From Piscirickettsiaceae bacterium CG07_land_8_20_14_0_80_44_28 (lineage in GTDB: Bacteria; Pseudomonadota; Gammaproteobacteria; Thiomicrospirales; Thiomicrospiraceae): 49,368 nt of DNA. The notes under the pieces are model-generated. The model was not told the origin of the DNA. It saw only the letters and a program-made list of their open reading frames with translations, and ran no database searches. The translations under genes were made by a program, and so were the position numbers. Position 1 is the first letter of the stretch; each line of letters begins with the position of its first letter. Location: positions 1 to 49,368 of the forward strand of contig PEWX01000101.1 in the NCBI GenBank assembly GCA_002779995.1. The letters are read 5' to 3'. Positions 1,761 to 45,227 of this stretch are shown in pieces.

Positions 1761-4325
1761 ATGATGGATAAATTTACCGCACAATTTCAGTCGGCTTTAA
1801 GTGAAGCGCAGTCGATTGCGCTAGGCTTAGAAAACCAGTTTATTGAACCGGTTCATATTTTGTCGGCGTTAATGAGCGGGCAATCTTCGTTATTGCAATT
1901 GGCGGGTGTTAATATTCCGATTTTGAAGCAGTCGGTGGCCGATAAATTACAGACCTTTCCCAAGGTGTCAGGGCATGGTGGGGATGTGCAGTTGTCGCAG
2001 AATGCCGGTCGCGTATTGAATTTAATGAACCAATTGGCGCAAAAAAATGGCGATGCCTATATCGCCAGTGAGTTGTTTTATTTAGCAGCGTTGCAATCCA
2101 ATGATTCGGTAAAAGCGTTATTAAAAGCGGCCGGGGCAACCGAGCAAGCCATTGAAGCAGCCATTGAAAAAGTAAGAGGGGGCGAATCCGTGCAAGACCA
2201 GAATGCAGAAGAAAACAGACAGGCGCTAGATAAATATACCCTGGATTTAACCGAACGTGCGCGTAATGGTAAATTGGATCCGGTAATTGGACGGGATGAT
2301 GAAATTCGTCGCGCGGTGCAGGTGTTGCAACGTCGTACCAAAAATAACCCAGTGTTAATTGGTGAACCCGGTGTGGGAAAAACCGCTATTGTGGAAGGCT
2401 TGGCGCAGCGCATTGTGAATGGTGAAGTGCCAGAAGGACTTAAAAATAAACGTTTGTTGTCTTTGGATTTAGCGGGATTATTGGCAGGTGCCAAATATCG
2501 CGGTGAATTTGAAGAGCGTTTAAAAGCCTTGCTGAAAGACTTGGAAAAACAAGCGGGTTCGGTCATTTTATTTATTGATGAAATTCACACCATGGTTGGC
2601 GCGGGTAAAACCGAAGGTTCGATGGATGCTGGCAATATGTTGAAGCCGGCTTTGGCACGCGGTGAACTGCATTGTATTGGTGCCACCACCTTGGATGAGT
2701 ACCGTGAAAATATCGAAAAAGATGCGGCTTTGGAACGACGTTTCCAAAAGGTATTGGTGGATGAGCCAACCGAAGAAGATACCATCGCGATTTTGCGGGG
2801 CTTGAAAGAACGTTATGAAGTGCATCATGGGGTGGCCATAACTGACCCCGCGATTATTGCGGCGGCGCATTTGTCACAACGCTATATTGCAGATCGCAAA
2901 TTACCCGATAAAGCCATTGATTTAATTGATGAAGCGGCTTCGCGTATTCGTATGGAAATCGATTCAAAACCTGAAGAGATGGATAAATTAGACCGTCGCT
3001 TGATTCAGCTCAAAATTGAGCGTGAAGCTTTGAAAAAAGAAAAAGATGACGCCTCTAAAAAGCGCTTGGGTGTCTTGCAGGAATCCATTGATGAAATGGA
3101 AAAAACCTATGCCGATTTAGAGGAAGTCTGGAAAAAAGACAAAGCGGCATTACAAGGCGCGAAACAGTTTAAAGAAGCATTGGACAAAGCACGGATTGAA
3201 ATGGAAGCGGCACATCGTGCAGGGGATTTGGGCAAAATGTCTGAATTGCAATATGGCGTGATTCCCGAATTGGAAGCCAAAATCCGCGCGGCTGAAGAAG
3301 CAGAAGGCGAAGAAGATGGCCAAATGCACCTATTGCGTAATAAGGTCACCGAAGAAGAAATTGCCGAAGTGGTGGCACGTTGGACAGGTATCCCCATTTC
3401 CAGAATGCTGGAAGGCGAGCGTGACAAATTATTGCGAATGGAAGAAGCCATTGGCAAAAAAGTGATTGGGCAATCCGAAGCGGTAGTGGCGGTGTCAGAT
3501 GCGATTCGTCGTTCCCGTGCGGGCTTGTCGGATCCCAATCGTCCCAATGGCTCTTTCTTGTTTTTAGGGCCAACCGGGGTTGGGAAAACCGAATTAACCA
3601 AAGCCTTAGCGGATTTCTTGTTTGATACGCAGGATGCCATTGTGCGTTTGGATATGTCGGAGTTTATGGAAAAACATTCGGTAGCGCGTTTAATCGGTGC
3701 ACCTCCAGGCTATGTGGGTTACGAGCAGGGCGGTTATTTAACCGAGGCGGTACGCCGCAAACCTTATTCGGTGATTTTATTGGATGAGGTCGAAAAAGCG
3801 CATCCGGATGTGTTCAATATCTTATTGCAAGTATTGGATGATGGGCGTTTAACCGATGGTCAAGGCCGCACCGTGGACTTTAAAAATACCGTGATCGTGA
3901 TGACCTCAAACCTAGGCTCGCACATTATTCAGGAAAAAGCGGGGGTTGCCAGCTACGATGAAATGAAGCAGGATGTGATGACGGTGGTCGGCGGTCACTT
4001 TAGGCCGGAGTTCATTAACCGGATCGATGATATTGTGGTGTTCCATCCACTAGATAAAGCGCAAATTCGTTCGATTGCCAATATTCAGTTAAATCATTTG
4101 CGTAATCGTTTGGCCGATAATGAAATGGCGCTGGAAGTCTCGGATGCCGTGCTGGATAAAATTGCCGAAGTTGGCTTTGATCCCGTTTATGGCGCGCGTC
4201 CTTTAAAACGTGCCGTTCAGCAACTGGTAGAAAACCCCTTGGCGCAACGATTATTAAAAGGCGAATTTGCCAGTGGTGAGACCATTCACATTGGCTTAAC
4301 CGACAGCGAAATTGATTTCCATTAA
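1761..4325 (+). CDS. clpB: ATP-dependent disaggregase ClpB
   Basis: Hsp100 chaperone that pulls polypeptides out of aggregates together with DnaK. The 854 residues match the usual full length of about 857. In order: the N-terminal Clp repeat domain (1-145), first AAA+ domain with Walker A GEPGVGKT at 201-208 and Walker B ILFIDE, the long coiled-coil middle domain (about 400-525) that separates ClpB from ClpA and ClpC, then the second AAA+ domain with Walker A GPTGVGKT at 603-610 and the [10 protein letters not shown] motif. Two ATGs occur in tandem (1761 and 1764); an AGAGGG upstream serves either. It is monocistronic, ending in a perfect REP palindrome shared with the convergent GGDEF gene. 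Confidence 0.98.
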
Positions 4326-4329
4326 TCAA

Positions 4330-4368
4330 GTGGGGACAGACCCCAACATTGTTGGGGTCTGTCCCCAC
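4330..4368. repeat. REP palindrome between clpB and a convergent gene
   Basis: A perfect 39-bp inverted repeat: two 19-base arms (GTGGGGACAGACCCCAACA and its complement) around a single central T. The core is the same as the 45-bp palindrome at 45183-45227. It lies 4 bp after clpB and 7 bp before the end of the convergent GGDEF gene, so a transcript from either side would fold into a very stable hairpin. It probably works as a two-way terminator or mRNA 3'-end protector. Confidence 0.93.
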
Positions 4369-12577: not shown

Positions 12578-12626
12578 GGGCGGCTCTTTCTTTTTGGGTA
12601 TCGATTTCGTGAAAAGGTTTGTTATA

Positions 12627-12787
12627 GAGACCCTTGCACGAGATGGTTACACGAATAAAAAGGGTTAAAATTTCCCATATTGTCGTTAAAAAACTGGCCA
12701 ATAGCTGGCTATTGACTGCGTTTTTTGCCTCAATTATGAAAAATATTTCCACATTTTTGTTTCGCGTCCCACTCATGCAAAGGTCTC
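12627..12787 (+). mobile_element. MITE-like element, copy A
   Basis: A 161-bp non-coding element. It starts GAGACCCTTGCACGAG and ends CTCATGCAAAGGTCTC, which are near-perfect terminal inverted repeats. A 5-bp target duplication, TTATA, flanks it exactly (12622-12626 and 12788-12792). The inner half holds the stem AATAGCTGGCTATT. The right-hand TTATA contains the stop codon of the CHAD gene. Copies B (same orientation), C (inverted), D (shortened) and E lie at 13545, 28301, 40917 and 43237. Confidence 0.88.
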
Positions 12788-13544: not shown

Positions 13545-13702
13545 GAGGCCTTTGCACGAGATGAATAAACGAATAAAAAGGGTTAAAATTTCCCATATTT
13601 TCGTTTAAAAACTGGCCAATAGCCGGCTATTCGCTGCGTTTTTTGCCTCAATATGAACGTTTTCCACATTTTTCTTTCGCGCCTCACTCATGCAAAGGTC
13701 TC
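13545..13702 (+). mobile_element. MITE-like element, copy B
   Basis: A 158-bp element in the same orientation as copy A, beginning GAGGCCTTTGCACGAG and ending CTCATGCAAAGGTCTC, with the central perfect stem AATAGCCGGCTATT. Unlike A and D it has no exact 5-bp target duplication: left flank ACCTT, right flank ATTAT. It sits between the CHAD gene and whatever promoter drove it. Confidence 0.85.
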
Positions 13703-14014: not shown

Positions 14015-14668
14015 TTAATGGGGTTGCTGAGCGCGCCATTCTGGATAACCTTCTATGAGGCGTTTGGCGTTAAACCCTTGCGAGAGCAGCGTTTCGACTG
14101 CCTGTTGCGACCACATGCAATAAGGCCCCCGGCAATAAACAATCAAGGGGTTTTGTGGGTCAAATTGCGTTAAGTGAGTTGCCAAGGTTTCGATGGGCAT
14201 ATTAATGGCATTGGGTAGATGTCCGGCGTCAAATTCGTCTTGAGGTCGGACATCCAGTAAGGTGTAGGCTTGGTTGTCACGGGTCATTTTTTTGAGAGCT
14301 GTCAAAGAAACCGGTTCAAAAGGTGTATCGGGTTGAAGATGTTGGTGTAATAAGCTCTGCATATCATCCAACTGGGTTTCGGCCACTTGACGCAAACTGA
14401 CAATTAATTGAAAGACGGATTCATCACTTAAACGATAAATAATCCGTTGTTTATCGCGCCGATTTTTAACCAGGCCTGCTTGCTTGAGCGATTGCAGGTG
14501 TTTGGAAACATTGGCAATGCTGAGGTCTAACTTTTGATGTAGGGTTTCGACATCGTTCTCGCCTTGCGCCAAGACATCTAAAATCATCAGCCGATGGGCA
14601 TGTCCCATCGCCTTGCTAACTAGAGCAAGTTGTTCAAACAGATTCCGTTTAAGGTGCGATGCGGTCAT
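14015..14668 (-). CDS. ArsR-family regulator fused to a rhodanese domain
   Basis: The 217 residues comprise two domains: an ArsR-type winged helix-turn-helix (about 8-95, with ANVSKHLQSLKQAGLV as the recognition region) and a rhodanese domain (about 115-214). The rhodanese active-site loop is CRGPYC, so the catalytic Cys is present and a second Cys closes the loop. Such fusions are thought to sense or carry persulfide sulfur through the rhodanese Cys and to control sulfur-stress genes. No ArsR-type metal-binding Cys pair is evident in the HTH part. It follows the ComFB-like gene by 23 bp on the same strand, so the two are probably co-transcribed. One CCAGGCCTG repeat lies inside (14470-14478). 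Confidence 0.88.
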   Translation of the reverse strand: MTASHLKRNLFEQLALVSKAMGHAHRLMILDVLAQGENDVETLHQKLDLSIANVSKHLQSLKQAGLVKNRRDKQRIIYRLSDESVFQLIVSLRQVAETQLDDMQSLLHQHLQPDTPFEPVSLTALKKMTRDNQAYTLLDVRPQDEFDAGHLPNAINMPIETLATHLTQFDPQNPLIVYCRGPYCMWSQQAVETLLSQGFNAKRLIEGYPEWRAQQPH

Positions 14669-25400: not shown

Positions 25401-25757
25401 TTACAGATTAATGACGCGATCACTGTCAGTGACCCAGTCAGATAATGCTTTTATCGTCGATTTTTCCACGCCTGTCAGATAGGGTTTATTTTTATGTAAG
25501 CCGCAGCGTGACATGCAGGTGCCACAAGCTTTTATGCTGATTCCTTCGGTTAGGAGTGTTTCAACAATTGATTTTAAATCTTGATCATAGCTTTGATCGG
25601 TGGTTGGGATATCACGTACCAAATCAACGGCATCATTCATTAGGAATATTCGCACTTCATGTTGGTCTTGGTGTAATTGTGTCGCCAGTCTTAAGCCATT
25701 CCAAGTAATGTCTGTGCCGTCGTAGGGTTCATTATTAAAAATCAGTAATATTTTCAT
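25401..25757 (-). CDS. DsrE-family sulfur-related protein
   Basis: A 118-residue soluble protein of the DsrE/DsrF/TusD fold. It starts KILLIFNNEPYDGTDITWNG and carries a Cys cluster, CGTCMSRCG (about 82-90), at the position of the sulfur-relay Cys of DsrE-like proteins. Members carry persulfide sulfur in sulfur oxidation or tRNA thiolation, but without the other dsr or tus genes here the exact role is open. The start at 25757 is fixed by a strong GGAGG six bases upstream. It lies 62 bp downstream of the exported hydrolase gene's end, on the same strand as the transporter group, so it may respond to the same sulfur stress. Confidence 0.85.
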   Translation of the reverse strand: MKILLIFNNEPYDGTDITWNGLRLATQLHQDQHEVRIFLMNDAVDLVRDIPTTDQSYDQDLKSIVETLLTEGISIKACGTCMSRCGLHKNKPYLTGVEKSTIKALSDWVTDSDRVINL

Positions 25758-25819
25758 CTTGCCTCCAAAAAAGGTTATGACAGACATGGTTAAATGCCTG
25801 TCATGACCGGTCAGTTGCG

Positions 25820-26731
25820 TTATTCGATAAATTCAGCAGTTGCTGTGGCGATGTCTTCATTGGCAAAATCTAAAAAGAAGTGGTCAGCATCTTCAAGTAT
25901 GAGCGTTTGGACTTTGTCGGCATCGGCTAAAGGTTGGATTTTTTGGGGTAGGTCGGCTACAACGGTATCGTTGGTGCCCATAATGATGAGCGTGGGTTTG
26001 TTAACCTTTTCTAAAACCGTTGGGGTGTCAAACTGAGGTTTGGGATCATAATAATCCACAAATGCTGCTGCCGTGACCTGTGCTTTTTTGCAATAGATAA
26101 AGTCAGTGTTTTTTAGAAAATCATTGCCTTTACCCTTAGCAACCATGGCTTTAGCTTTGGCGAGAACACCTGAGAGCGGTTTGCCATATTTGGTTTCATA
26201 CTCCGTTGCAGATTGTTGTTCTCCGGTTGCCGGCGCGATTAACACGAGATTTTTGATCAATGCATTATCGTGTTCGGCAGCATACCAAGCGGTTTGATTG
26301 CCGCCTCGTGAGTGTCCCATTAAGGTGATCGCGGTTGCGCCTTTTGATTTAAGCCATGCTACCCAAAAATCCATTTCCTTCAGGGCATCGGTATGCTTGT
26401 GGGTATGCGGGGTGGCGCAGTCATATTCGCCTTTGCGATCATTTAGCCCTAGCGATAAGTTAATCGCCAGAGAACTGATGCCTTGATTGGCAAGATTTTT
26501 TTGGAGCTGTTGATAGGTAGAGCGTTCATTATGCGTTAGGGTGCCATGGGTGAGCAGTGCAATGGGATCGCCAAAGGTTTTGTTATCGGCCATCATCAGT
26601 TTGGCATTCAGGGTTATATCTTGGTAGCTTTGCTTGATTTCTTGAAATTCTGCTGCATAAGCAAATGATGAGGCAAGTAAGAGTTGCATTCCGATTGCCG
26701 CAGAAGCGAAAAAAGGGGTGATTTTTTTCAT
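25820..26731 (-). CDS. Exported alpha/beta-hydrolase
   Basis: A 303-residue alpha/beta-hydrolase with a Sec signal peptide (about 1-26, ending SSFAYA before AEF). The nucleophile elbow is GHSRGG, giving a Ser nucleophile; LLTHGTLTHN is the oxyanion-hole strand and DADHFF near the C-terminus supplies the His. It should therefore act in the periplasm on an ester or similar substrate, which cannot be named. Two Cys residues (in GEYDCATPH and FIYCKKA) might form a disulfide. It lies 47 bp downstream of the MFS gene, probably in one transcript with it. Confidence 0.82.
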   Translation of the reverse strand: MKKITPFFASAAIGMQLLLASSFAYAAEFQEIKQSYQDITLNAKLMMADNKTFGDPIALLTHGTLTHNERSTYQQLQKNLANQGISSLAINLSLGLNDRKGEYDCATPHTHKHTDALKEMDFWVAWLKSKGATAITLMGHSRGGNQTAWYAAEHDNALIKNLVLIAPATGEQQSATEYETKYGKPLSGVLAKAKAMVAKGKGNDFLKNTDFIYCKKAQVTAAAFVDYYDPKPQFDTPTVLEKVNKPTLIIMGTNDTVVADLPQKIQPLADADKVQTLILEDADHFFLDFANEDIATATAEFIE

Positions 26732-26778: not shown

Positions 26779-28050
26779 TTAAGAAGATGTTGCTGTGTAT
26801 GGTGGTTTCTTAAGGGCGATAAAAACCCATAAACCAGATAGTAGCATCATTGTTCCAACAAAGTAAAAGGGCCAAATGACAGATTCGGTATAAAAAGCAA
26901 TTCCCCCCATCAGTAAGGCGCCAATCGCATAACCAAAATCCCGCCAAAAACGATAAATGCCTAGAATGCCGGCACGTGATTTTGGTTCGCTAACATCCGC
27001 GACAGCGGCGCCAAGCGTTGGATAAAGCATGGCCATGCCAAAGCCCATCATGGCTGCAAGCATGGACCAGGCAAGCGGGGTTTCAACCCAAACAAATCCT
27101 AGGCTGGCAAAGGCACAGAGCCAGAAGCCACCCACTATCAAGCCGCGTCTACCCCATTGATCGGATAAGGGGCCGGTAATCAGTTGCGAAGCGCCCCATA
27201 CCACACCATAAATAGCGATAATCGCACTGGCTTGGACAAGCGATTGAGCTTGATTCAGCAAGTAAACGGGCATAAAAATCCAAACGAGGGCGTCGATGAA
27301 TTTTTCGACCAGGCCTGCTTGATTTAGAGCGACTAATTGGGGCTGTTTTAAGCTGGCGAAAATCATCATGGTTTTGAACGGTAGGGTTTTTGGAGACGTT
27401 GCTTCTTTAAGTGTATCTTGGTGGTTTTGTTGATGTAGTCGTGCCCAAGGACGGGTATCAACAACCTTCCACAGCGCTAACAAAAGTCCCAGCCCAATCA
27501 CAATCAAACCAAATCCCAATATGGCTTCGCGTGGGCCGTAGTGTTCTGCCAAGGCGGCGGTTGCCCAGCCTGCGATGCCGACTGCCGCATAACCTGAAAA
27601 TTCGTTAAAACCGTTGACTAACCCTTTTTGATGCGCATGTGCTAAATCCAGTTTGCTGTTGAGTGCCATCGACCAACATAACCCTTGGTTGATGCCCAAA
27701 AACACCATTGCCCAAATAATCCACCACCAAGATTGCGCGTAAAAGATCAGCAGTGGTACGGGAATGGCAAATAGCCAGCCGGCAATCAGTAAGCGACGCC
27801 GTCCATATTGGTCGCTCATGTGGCCGGCAAGTAAGTTGATGGCGGCTTTCACCAAACCAAAGATGACGACAAAAAGTGACAGGCTCAAAAAGGCTTGTTT
27901 AGCTAGGCCAAACTCAGTTTCTGCCAGGCCTGGCACAACGGTTCGTGTCATACCAATGGTTAAGCCAACTAAAAACACTTGGACGAGCTGTTGAAGCATT
28001 TGTAGCAAATTAGCACGAATTCCGTGTTGAACCTGGTTGTGACTGGGCAT
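26779..28050 (-). CDS. Major facilitator superfamily transporter
   Basis: A 423-residue MFS permease with twelve predicted membrane helices. The loop 2-3 signature is GHMSDQYGRRRLL (about 76-88), and an equivalent GPLSDQWGRRGLI lies in the second half (about 292-304). The substrate is unknown; a drug or small-anion exporter is likely. It is divergent from the MBL-fold gene, and the first of three ATTCAAC-type dyads lies 24 bp before its start, so it is probably regulated by repression there. Two copies of the CCAGGCCTG repeat lie inside (27309 and 27924). Confidence 0.88.
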   Translation of the reverse strand: MPSHNQVQHGIRANLLQMLQQLVQVFLVGLTIGMTRTVVPGLAETEFGLAKQAFLSLSLFVVIFGLVKAAINLLAGHMSDQYGRRRLLIAGWLFAIPVPLLIFYAQSWWWIIWAMVFLGINQGLCWSMALNSKLDLAHAHQKGLVNGFNEFSGYAAVGIAGWATAALAEHYGPREAILGFGLIVIGLGLLLALWKVVDTRPWARLHQQNHQDTLKEATSPKTLPFKTMMIFASLKQPQLVALNQAGLVEKFIDALVWIFMPVYLLNQAQSLVQASAIIAIYGVVWGASQLITGPLSDQWGRRGLIVGGFWLCAFASLGFVWVETPLAWSMLAAMMGFGMAMLYPTLGAAVADVSEPKSRAGILGIYRFWRDFGYAIGALLMGGIAFYTESVIWPFYFVGTMMLLSGLWVFIALKKPPYTATSS

Positions 28051-28074: not shown

Positions 28075-28094
28075 ATTCAACTTAGTGGTTGAAT
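28075..28094. promoter_or_regulatory. Operator-like dyad 1 (MFS side)
   Basis: ATTCAAC, six bases, GTTGAAT: a perfect 7-6-7 inverted repeat 24 bp before the MFS start. The form resembles operators of ArsR-family repressors. The two similar sites downstream make chance unlikely. Confidence 0.75.
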
Positions 28095-28165
28095 TATAAA
28101 TTGGCGTCGAATGAATTACAAACCTGCTAAGCCCTAAATTTTTTGATAGTAGCAATTAATAAATG

Positions 28166-28187
28166 TAATCAACTCTTCAGTTGATTA
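28166..28187. promoter_or_regulatory. Operator-like dyad 2
   Basis: TAATCAAC, six bases, GTTGATTA: a perfect 8-6-8 inverted repeat with the same CAAC-N6-GTTG core as the sites at 28075 and 28214. Confidence 0.75.
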
Positions 28188-28213
28188 ATAGGGGTAGGGT
28201 GTTTATAGTATTT

Positions 28214-28233
28214 ATTCAACCTGATAGTTGAAT
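28214..28233. promoter_or_regulatory. Operator-like dyad 3 (MBL side)
   Basis: ATTCAAC, six bases, GTTGAAT, the same as dyad 1 except for the spacer. It is separated from the MBL-fold gene it may once have controlled by MITE copy C. Confidence 0.75.
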
Positions 28234-28300
28234 AGAGATTGTTCGATTTCAGGCGATCCAATCGTGTGTTTGTTTGGATCGTGCTTTTATTAAATTAATA

Positions 28301-28459
28301 GAGATCTTTGCATGAGTGGGGCGCGAAACAAAAATGTGGAAAAATTTTCATATTGAGGCAAAAAATCCAGCGAATAGCCGGCTATTGGCCAGTTTTTTAA
28401 CGAAAATATGGGAAATTTTAACCGTTTTTATTGGTGACGCCATCTCGTACAAAGGTTTC
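28301..28459 (-). mobile_element. MITE-like element, copy C
   Basis: A 159-bp copy in inverted orientation, beginning GAGATCTTTGCATGAG and ending CTCGTACAAAGGTTTC. Flanks are TAATA (left) and TAATC (right), an imperfect 5-bp target duplication. It lies between the triple-operator region and the MBL-fold gene, ending 17 bp before that start codon and leaving room only for the ribosome-binding site. Confidence 0.86.
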
Positions 28460-28476
28460 TAATCGGGAGAGCGTAA

Positions 28477-29220
28477 ATGTTTTTATTTCAGCATACACCG
28501 GCTTCAGAGCCAGGATCGTTATCCTATTTATTGGGATGCGTGGGTCAAGGGCTAGGGATTGCCGTGGATGTCCATCAGGACGAAGTGGATTTATACCTAG
28601 AGATTGCTGATCAGAAGGGGATTCAAATTGCTTATGTGGTCGATACCCATGTTCATGCAGATCATTATACCGGCGGTTACGAATTGGCACAGCGAAGTGG
28701 CGGGCAATACGCACTTCATAAAAATTCTCCGGCACAGTGTCTTTTTAAACCGCTTGAAGATCATCAAATCGTCAAAGCAGGTAATGTCGAAGTTGAGGTG
28801 ATTTATACGCCGGGACATACAGAAGACAGTATTTCTTTAGTGGTCACTGACCGATCTCGCGCGGATGAACCATGGTTTTTAGTAACGGGTCATACGCTTT
28901 TTGTGGGCAGTGTTGGTCGACCTGACTTGAAAGGCCGAGCAACAGAAATGGCCAATCAATTATACGATTCGATTCATGGGCGTATCTTAACGTTTCCAGA
29001 TACCATGGAAATTCTGCCTGGAGCACAAGCGGGTAGTGTTTGTGGCGCAGGGATTAGTGGCAAGCCGATGTCGACACTCGGCTTTGAAAAGCGTTACAAC
29101 CCAACGCTAAAACTTGATAAAGCGGCCTTTGTTGAGCAGGTTGTTGGCGCAGTTTTGCCTGCTCCGGAAGGGTTGAAAAAGATTGTGGCTTATAATTTAA
29201 ACCCTGCCATAAGTCGCTGA
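28477..29220 (+). CDS. MBL-fold hydrolase, persulfide-dioxygenase-like
   Basis: A 247-residue metallo-beta-lactamase-fold protein of the ETHE1 / glyoxalase II group. The metal motif THVHADH (His58, His60, Asp62, His63) and His114 (PGHTEDS) are kept. In ETHE1 relatives the bridging Asp lies in a TGD segment before LF-G--GR-D; here that segment is TGHTLFVGSVGRPDL, so His139 stands where Asp is expected. Persulfide dioxygenases oxidise glutathione persulfide to sulfite, which fits a sulfur oxidiser, but the changed ligand makes the activity uncertain. A GGGAGA ribosome-binding site precedes the ATG, just beyond MITE copy C. Confidence 0.82.
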   Translation: MFLFQHTPASEPGSLSYLLGCVGQGLGIAVDVHQDEVDLYLEIADQKGIQIAYVVDTHVHADHYTGGYELAQRSGGQYALHKNSPAQCLFKPLEDHQIVKAGNVEVEVIYTPGHTEDSISLVVTDRSRADEPWFLVTGHTLFVGSVGRPDLKGRATEMANQLYDSIHGRILTFPDTMEILPGAQAGSVCGAGISGKPMSTLGFEKRYNPTLKLDKAAFVEQVVGAVLPAPEGLKKIVAYNLNPAISR

Positions 29221-40916: not shown

Positions 40917-41002
40917 GAGACCTTTGCACGAGATAGTTACACGAATAAAAATGGTTAAAATTTCCCATATTTTTTTTCGCGGCCCACTCATGCAAAGGAC
41001 TC
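40917..41002 (+). mobile_element. MITE-like element, copy D (internally shortened)
   Basis: An 86-bp version: both ends are intact (GAGACCTTTGCACGAG and CTCATGCAAAGGACTC) but the central half, with the AATAGCCGGCTATT stem, is absent. It is flanked by a perfect 5-bp duplication AAGGT (40912-40916 and 41003-41007). The left AAGGT begins inside the TAA stop of the RND permease. Confidence 0.88.
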
Positions 41003-43227: not shown

Positions 43228-43236
43228 GATCTAATA

Positions 43237-43396
43237 GAGACCTTTGCACGAAGTGGATGTACCAATAAAAAGGGTTAAAATTTCCCATATTTTCGTTAAA
43301 AAACTCGCCAATAGCCGGCTATTGACTGCGTTTTTTGCCTCAAGATGAAAAAATTTTTCACATTTTTCTTTCACGTCTCACTCATGCAAAGGTCTC
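43237..43396 (+). mobile_element. MITE-like element, copy E
   Basis: A 160-bp copy beginning GAGACCTTTGCACGAA and ending CTCATGCAAAGGTCTC, with the central stem AATAGCCGGCTATT. Flanking five-base sequences TAATA and TGATA differ at one base and are probably an aged target duplication. It lies 7 bp past the stop codon of the membrane-protein gene at 43404. Confidence 0.87.
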
Positions 43397-45170: not shown

Positions 45171-45182
45171 TTATATTTTGAT

Positions 45183-45227
45183 AAAATGGGGACAGACCCC
45201 AACATTGTTGGGGTCTGTCCCCATTTT
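45183..45227. repeat. REP palindrome upstream of its transposase
   Basis: A perfect 45-bp inverted repeat: two 22-base arms (AAAATGGGGACAGACCCC...) around a central T. The inner 37 bp are identical to the palindrome at 4330-4368. It lies 13 bp before the start of the REP-associated transposase, the usual position for such elements. Confidence 0.93.

Follow-up and report, generated by a model that had tools for sequence, protein, structure and literature searches.

Three dyads between divergent genes

The window, by which we mean the whole 49,368-nt stretch analysed here from a Piscirickettsiaceae bacterium genome, contains a divergent gene pair. On the plus strand lies an intact gene for a 247-aa persulfide-dioxygenase-like MBL-fold protein (28477-29220), and on the minus strand its divergent partner, an MFS transporter gene (26779-28050). 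Behind the MFS gene, on the same strand, follow genes for an alpha/beta hydrolase (25820-26731, 47 bp from the MFS gene) and, after a gap of 32 bp, a DsrE-family protein (25401-25787); judging by these short gaps, both are probably co-transcribed with the transporter gene.

The MBL protein has the MBL fold and carries both the THxHADH and the PGHT motif. By sequence its closest solved structures are 3r2u, 3tp9, 8zbd, 2gcu, 4ysb, 5ve3 and 4chl, and MBL proteins of the CstB/ETHE1/PDO type are its best solved relatives. The iron site of persulfide dioxygenases is formed by His-His-Asp. Whereas proteins of the CstB/ETHE1/PDO type carry this Asp in a TGD motif, the window protein lacks it and has His in its place (TGH). 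Across 86 aligned rows the motif reads TGD in 71, TGH in 8, SQH in 6 and SGH in 1, so that 15 of the 86, the window protein and its nearest relatives among them, have His at the Asp position, possibly reflecting a change of the metal site. The gene gives no sign of relaxed selection, with a pN/pS of 0.134 against the orthologue in G001 as compared to 0.136 between G001 and G002, although dS is saturated and the test is a weak one.

The 426-nt gap between the two genes holds three perfect dyads sharing a CAAC-N6-GTTG core. Dyad 1 (28075-28094) reads ATTCAAC-TTAGTG-GTTGAAT, with 7-bp arms; dyad 2 (28166-28187) reads TAATCAAC-TCTTCA-GTTGATTA, with 8-bp arms; and dyad 3 (28214-28233) reads ATTCAAC-CTGATA-GTTGAAT, again with 7-bp arms. 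The core occurs four times in the window, as compared to 1.06 expected, and at least four occurrences were seen in 2 of 100 shuffles; the fourth copy, at 25960, falls within a coding frame. In dinucleotide shuffles of the gap, searched for dyads with 5-nt arms and a gap of 3-12, two copies of any one dyad appeared in 2 of 3000 cases and three copies in none. The three dyads singled out by the earlier note, with their perfect arms, are therefore real.

Promoter positions and layout of the gap

A consensus scan, which returned 4 promoter-like sites in the scanned stretch versus 3.1 expected, places the putative MBL promoter at 28181-28209 on the plus strand (TTGATT-17-TATAGT, with the −10 box at 28204-28209). 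Its −35 box is contained in the right arm of dyad 2, and dyad 3 lies at the expected transcription start. The same arrangement, with a dyad arm serving as the MBL −35 box exactly 17 bp from a −10-like box, was found in 11 of 12 gaps including that of the window (G031 being the exception) when a loose −10 pattern was used. On the other side, a candidate MFS promoter (28093-28121, minus strand, TTGTAA-17-TATAAT), retrieved by the same scan, has a −10 region that overlaps dyad 1. A loosely similar box (TTGNNN) is present on the MFS side of 8 of the 12 gaps, with none in G001, G002, G015 and G022.

The distance between sites 2 and 3 is nearly constant, at 46-50 bp across four triple arrays, as expected if both sites are tied to one promoter. 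The number of dyads follows the size of the gap, with gap ends set by tblastn hits on the loci retrieved: four gaps of 94-98 bp have one dyad, three of 123-203 bp have two, and four of 230-426 bp have three, the exception being the 350-bp gap of Thiomicrospira microaerophila (L009), with a single dyad.

The dyads overlap one −35 and one −10 box as well as the predicted start site, a layout that would be expected of repression. Some ArsR-family proteins are activators, and HlyU bears that description in PDB molecule names, so the ArsR-type regulator that we propose below (P0003) could be pictured as an activator or mixed regulator and not a simple repressor; given the three overlaps, we regard this as quite unlikely.

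Conservation of the array in relatives

Comparison with MITE-free relatives, as the earlier note had suggested, revealed the triple array in the orthologous gap of three of them (G001, G002 and Thiomicrospira sp. Kmv17, L008), in the same order, between the same divergent genes and with no MITE. Their MBL proteins are 83%, 79% and 74% identical to that of the window, respectively. The presence of the triple array in relatives without the MITE indicates that the array is older than the MITE, which in the window lies between the array and the MBL gene.

Other relatives have a reduced gap. In T. microaerophila the one dyad is accompanied by a half site in place of the first operator, beyond which the sequence is unrelated, so that the window may not be the only case in which the MFS/MBL gap has received insertions. 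By eye, the unrelated sequence beside this half site (gap L009:5651-6000) looks repeat-like. G007 (L203:4769-5028), which the regulator tree places closest to the window genome, retains site 1 together with the MFS and regulator genes but lacks sites 2 and 3 and the MBL gene. A gene that we named by eye as a YeeE/YedE-like transporter follows the MBL gene in several relatives (L008:6819-7940, L205:4080-5186, L206:3144-4241); no such gene stands at the corresponding place in the window.

A MITE in the leader of the MBL gene

The MITE of the window (28301-28459) lies in the 5' leader of the MBL gene and is absent from the aligned orthologous gaps. Like other bacterial MITEs it is short (159 nt, too short to encode a transposase), ends in terminal inverted repeats, occurs in many copies and is flanked by a target duplication. 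Of 84 candidates, 40 were scored, and these yielded at least 15 near-full-length copies in the genome, window copy included; matches to the element number 60 in the genome, palindromic self-matches counted. The target duplication is identical in 7 of the 15 copies and matches at 4 of 5 bases in 4 more, among them the window copy, whose 5-bp flanks are TAATA (28296-28300) and TAATC (28460-28464). Further copies or pieces of the family are visible in the window at 12626-12787, 13549-13702, 40917-41002 and 43236-43396. A separate 46-nt element, in two copies that are 93% alike (4322-4367 and 45178-45223), is built around the long dyad GGGGACAGACCCCAACATTGTTGGGGTCTGTCCCC.

As had been noted earlier, the MITE ends 17 bp before the MBL start codon, and the promoter has literally been moved about 160 bp further from the ATG. 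The insertion point is downstream of the MBL promoter and dyad 3 and upstream of the likely ribosome binding site, read from the sequence as GGGAG (28465-28469, plus strand), which adjoins the MITE and is intact. Since promoter and operators both lie upstream of the element, transcription should begin at a point controlled by the operators and continue through the element. The earlier idea that the array was cut off from the MBL gene and control lost is thus unsupported, and the consensus scan found no promoter-like site within the MITE on the strand of the MBL gene from which that gene might otherwise be read. Most likely, as judged from these positions, the MITE lengthens the untranslated leader of the MBL gene rather than disconnecting the gene from its control.

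An alternative is that the central stem of the MITE stops transcription coming from the old promoter, leaving the MBL gene silent or driven from elsewhere. The centre of the element does contain a terminator-like stem (28377-28389) followed by six T residues (28393-28398) on the MBL strand, and the absence of the MBL gene from G007 implies that the gene is dispensable in this lineage. The stem is weak, though, with 5 pairs counted: folds of three stretches gave z values of −0.46, −1.45 and −0.61, the last being that of the MITE core, for which 51 of 200 shuffles folded as well, and the scanned stretch contained 3 terminator-like sites versus 1.7 expected. We therefore rejected a strong intrinsic terminator in the MITE. 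A gene driven from elsewhere also fits poorly with the lack of a promoter-like site in the element, and a silenced gene with an MBL frame that is intact and has a pN/pS like that of its relatives; altogether we consider transcriptional disconnection unlikely. A lengthened leader might still affect the level or stability of the MBL transcript, possibly with some loss of expression.

An ArsR-rhodanese fusion protein as the candidate regulator

The candidate regulator, P0003, is encoded at 14015-14668 on the minus strand, 13 kb from the array and behind purHD and one small gene. It is a fusion of an ArsR-type winged helix-turn-helix domain (PF01022, 33.5 bits with a cut-off of 22; NF033788, 81.6 bits with a cut-off of 55) and a rhodanese domain (PF00581, 61.7 bits with a cut-off of 22.2), with the recognition helix ANVSKHLQ and the rhodanese loop CRGPYC, and would act as a repressor. 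Against the NCBIfam BigR model it scores 60.4 bits, below the curated cut-off of 155.

In relatives, the regulator family and the gene pair recur together. Among the best 80 MBL loci of 551 confirmed relatives, 79 contain an MFS homologue and 72 an ArsR-rhodanese homologue of P0003, as counted in the fetched DNA, some of the 8 loci without the latter being short contigs. In Kmv17, T. microaerophila and G001 a close orthologue of P0003 (64-70% identity) lies within the MBL cluster itself; in G002 the regulator and MBL genes are far apart. A close orthologue (at least 62% identity) is found in 5 of 11 genomes of the genus (G000, G001, G002, G005 and G007), and all five have a TTCAAC-type dyad in a promoter region, that of G005 being so classed by reading the ORF that covers it as antisense. 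In the six other genomes the TTCAAC pattern appears at 9 places, and the 7 that were examined are all inside ORFs. A close orthologue of the MBL protein is missing from both G005 and G007, so the dyad follows the regulator and not the enzyme.

Genome context and the match between helix and operator described below make a strong case for the ArsR-rhodanese protein that the earlier note named as one candidate, and P0003 is very probably the regulator of the array. The proposal that the dyads are ArsR-type operators beside a sulfur-stress gene is likewise supported by sequence comparison.

Genome-wide sites and autoregulation

Scanning the genome for further operators gave little beyond the array. 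The TCAAC-N6-GTTGA pattern is found at 7 places versus 4 for a reversed control, a modest enrichment, and WTCAAC-N6-GTTGAW at 5 places versus none, three of these being the array and two lying inside ORFs. Allowing up to 2 mismatches, ATTCAAC-N6-GTTGAAT matches 20 places versus 10 for the reversed control. Of the 17 outside the array, 15 are within ORFs, one (L216) overlaps the 3' end of an ORF, and one (L218, C73:24976) has a damaged arm and sits in a mechanically called ORF, 28 nt before an internal ATG. We accepted none of the 17 as a regulon member, and the scan that had been proposed as a way to the regulon did not extend it convincingly. Two single sites were likewise rejected as coding: one on C4 of G007 and one on C69 of G000, the latter with a spacer identical to that of site 1.

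The earlier note had named the absence of further dyads near an ArsR-type gene as a refutation of its reading, and taken literally this is what the genome shows: none is present near the P0003 gene or in the 3.2-kb loci of three further ArsR-type genes, and we rejected autoregulation here because no dyad lies near the regulator gene. In relatives, in contrast, dyads do stand beside orthologous regulator genes. In G002 and G005 (L207:2769 and L124:458) the orthologous regulator gene is preceded by another, unnamed gene, and a TTCAAC-type dyad lies in the gap upstream of the latter, at a distance of about 1 kb from the regulator gene, which suggests that this gene pair may be autoregulated in those genomes. 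A mechanically called ORF covers both dyads; we read it as antisense to a divergent gene whose product looks like a MoxR-type ATPase.

The recognition helix and the sixth base of the operator

Comparing regulators with their operators, with the sixth base of the half-site left free in the matching, revealed that this base tends to vary with two residues of the recognition helix. Regulators with a V-S-K helix, such as P0003, go with C in 71 of 72 half-sites (36 sites, 24 genomes), those with T-S-R go with T in 36 of 40 (20 sites, 18 genomes), and those with T-S-H go with A or G in all 8 (4 loci), while T-S-Q and A-S-Q helices have mixed operators (12 half-sites, 5 loci). In regulator-operator sets fetched after the rule had been seen, 17/17 V-S-K and 9/9 T-S-R sets agree by majority base; these 26 sets represent 24 distinct genomes.

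The table behind these counts covers loci with a visible site, and leaves out sites inside long ORFs, two partial regulator hits (G028:C27 and G034:C115) and L234, which we took as the same species as L009; L008/G058 and L009/G054 were each collapsed since their regulator proteins are identical. The second site of G002, near its regulator gene, is outside the table and is C-type too. Among the excluded ORF sites is one of T type that lies within the regulator gene and encodes its I-N-I-P-I-E stretch. The loci that dropped out for want of a visible site include six with a V-S-K helix (L225, L227, L230, L236, L237 and L248), whose fetched DNA contains no intergenic site; one of these, L237, is of the Kmv17 species, which does carry the array. 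Also left out are the lone N-T-S-K protein (L253), near which no site was recognisable, three of seven T-S-H/A-S-H loci, and the L-x-S-A/S class, in which 56 of 57 loci have no dyad near these genes, which leaves part of the family outside the rule.

Apart from the N-T-S-K protein, the V-S-K regulators form one clade (31 rows, support 100), and the helix-operator match is thus essentially one joint change, which could be tied to other residues of this clade. That the alpha4 tetrapeptide sets operator choice in ArsR proteins is stated in a passage of PMC10509353, so the principle is known; the specific pairing of V-S-K with C and T-S-R with T was absent from the passages on ArsR regulators that we consulted. 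A passage of PMC8960804 describes Gln56 of NolR, and we make no claim that K56 of P0003 is its equivalent: our alignment places K56 opposite a Gln further along that helix, about five residues away assuming that the chain follows the numbering of that paper.

These results bear on whether the dyads might be read by some other regulator, ArsR-type or unrelated, with the ArsR-rhodanese linkage a coincidence. That the P0003 gene is 13 kb away with no dyad near it, that the genome encodes three more ArsR-type proteins over the curated cut-off, and that the helix-operator match amounts to a single switch would all fit such a reading. Those three proteins, however, differ in their helices (STVSRHL, SNISQHI and STISQHI), and their loci contain no dyad; the match held in all 26 later-fetched sets, and the linkage is seen in 72 of the best 80 MBL loci. 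We therefore see very little probability in a coincidence.

Sensing and comparison with known systems

According to passages of PMC9774590 and PMC8960804, SqrR and BigR sense their signal through two cysteines of the ArsR protein itself. The family of P0003 appears to differ: the cysteines of the ArsR fold are not conserved, and a rhodanese domain with a CRGPYC loop is fused instead. The ArsR part of P0003 has no cysteine, and hence not the two sensing cysteines of BigR and SqrR; of 85 aligned ArsR-rhodanese rows, 47 lack cysteine over the first 109 positions of the alignment, whereas the CRG[PA][YF]C motif is kept in all 85. From this cysteine conservation we infer that the rhodanese loop is the sensor of the family. 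None of the 43 matched solved sequences aligns across both domains of P0003. Taken as one statement, that ArsR-rhodanese repressors are a widespread family whose members sense sulfane sulfur through CRGPYC and not through ArsR cysteines, and read C, T or A/G by a helix code of V54/K56, T54/R56 or T54/H56, respectively, the idea is a tentative one, to which we would give slightly less than an even chance.

With SqrR, BigR and YgaV the system has in common the ArsR winged helix and the control of sulfide or persulfide genes. Passages of PMC9774250, PMC10451225 and PMC10509353 describe persulfide-sensing ArsR regulators whose genes co-locate with sulfurtransferase or rhodanese genes. The SqrR site quoted in PMC9774250 is ATTC-N8-GAAT, as compared to ATTC-N12-GAAT in the window array. 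In Hyphomicrobium denitrificans, sulfur oxidation is repressed by SoxR and sHdrR, which are of ArsR type too; the binding of SoxR to an intergenic region flanked by divergent genes gives two shifted bands (PMC10451225), and genes for YeeE-type transporters are found near the SoxR/sHdrR system (PMC11582611). With its stated length of 124 aa, SoxR is too short for a fused rhodanese domain, unlike P0003. The targets also differ, being sox and shdr genes there and an MFS/MBL pair in the window.

The operators of CadC-type ArsR proteins have the geometry ATTCAA-N8-TTGAAT, as do the window dyads. CadC is a metal sensor that controls an efflux pump, unlike the system in the window. A literature search over the titles, abstract openings and passages of open-licence papers retrieved no study of an ArsR-rhodanese fusion regulator. 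The system is a variant of persulfide-type ArsR control, with a fusion regulator that is new to the literature so searched.

Discussion

Our results point, with good though not overwhelming probability, to an array of P0003 operators that represses both transcription units, with a MITE that only lengthens the leader of one of them. When no signal is present, P0003 dimers on site 1 would block the promoter of the MFS-hydrolase-DsrE unit, and dimers on sites 2 and 3 would cover the −35 box and the start point of the MBL promoter. Sulfane sulfur or persulfide would then modify P0003, with the CRGPYC loop of the rhodanese domain and its two cysteines as the probable target, and the modified protein would leave the DNA, so that both units are expressed. 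The MITE would be a later insertion that brings the MBL leader to about 260 nt and spares the operators, the promoter, the ribosome binding site and the coding sequence. Within this model, binding, repression, the signal, co-transcription and read-through of the leader are the steps that we infer, whereas the array and its occurrence in relatives, the promoter geometry, the link between regulator family and gene pair, the helix-operator match and the position of the MITE are observed.

On this reading, a gene pair that accompanies an ArsR-rhodanese fusion in 72 of the best 80 loci gains a likely regulator and regulon. The comparison of helices and operators adds a testable rule, in which two helix residues are linked to one operator base, and the MITE in the MBL leader would show, as a natural experiment, what a long leader does to a gene under operator control.
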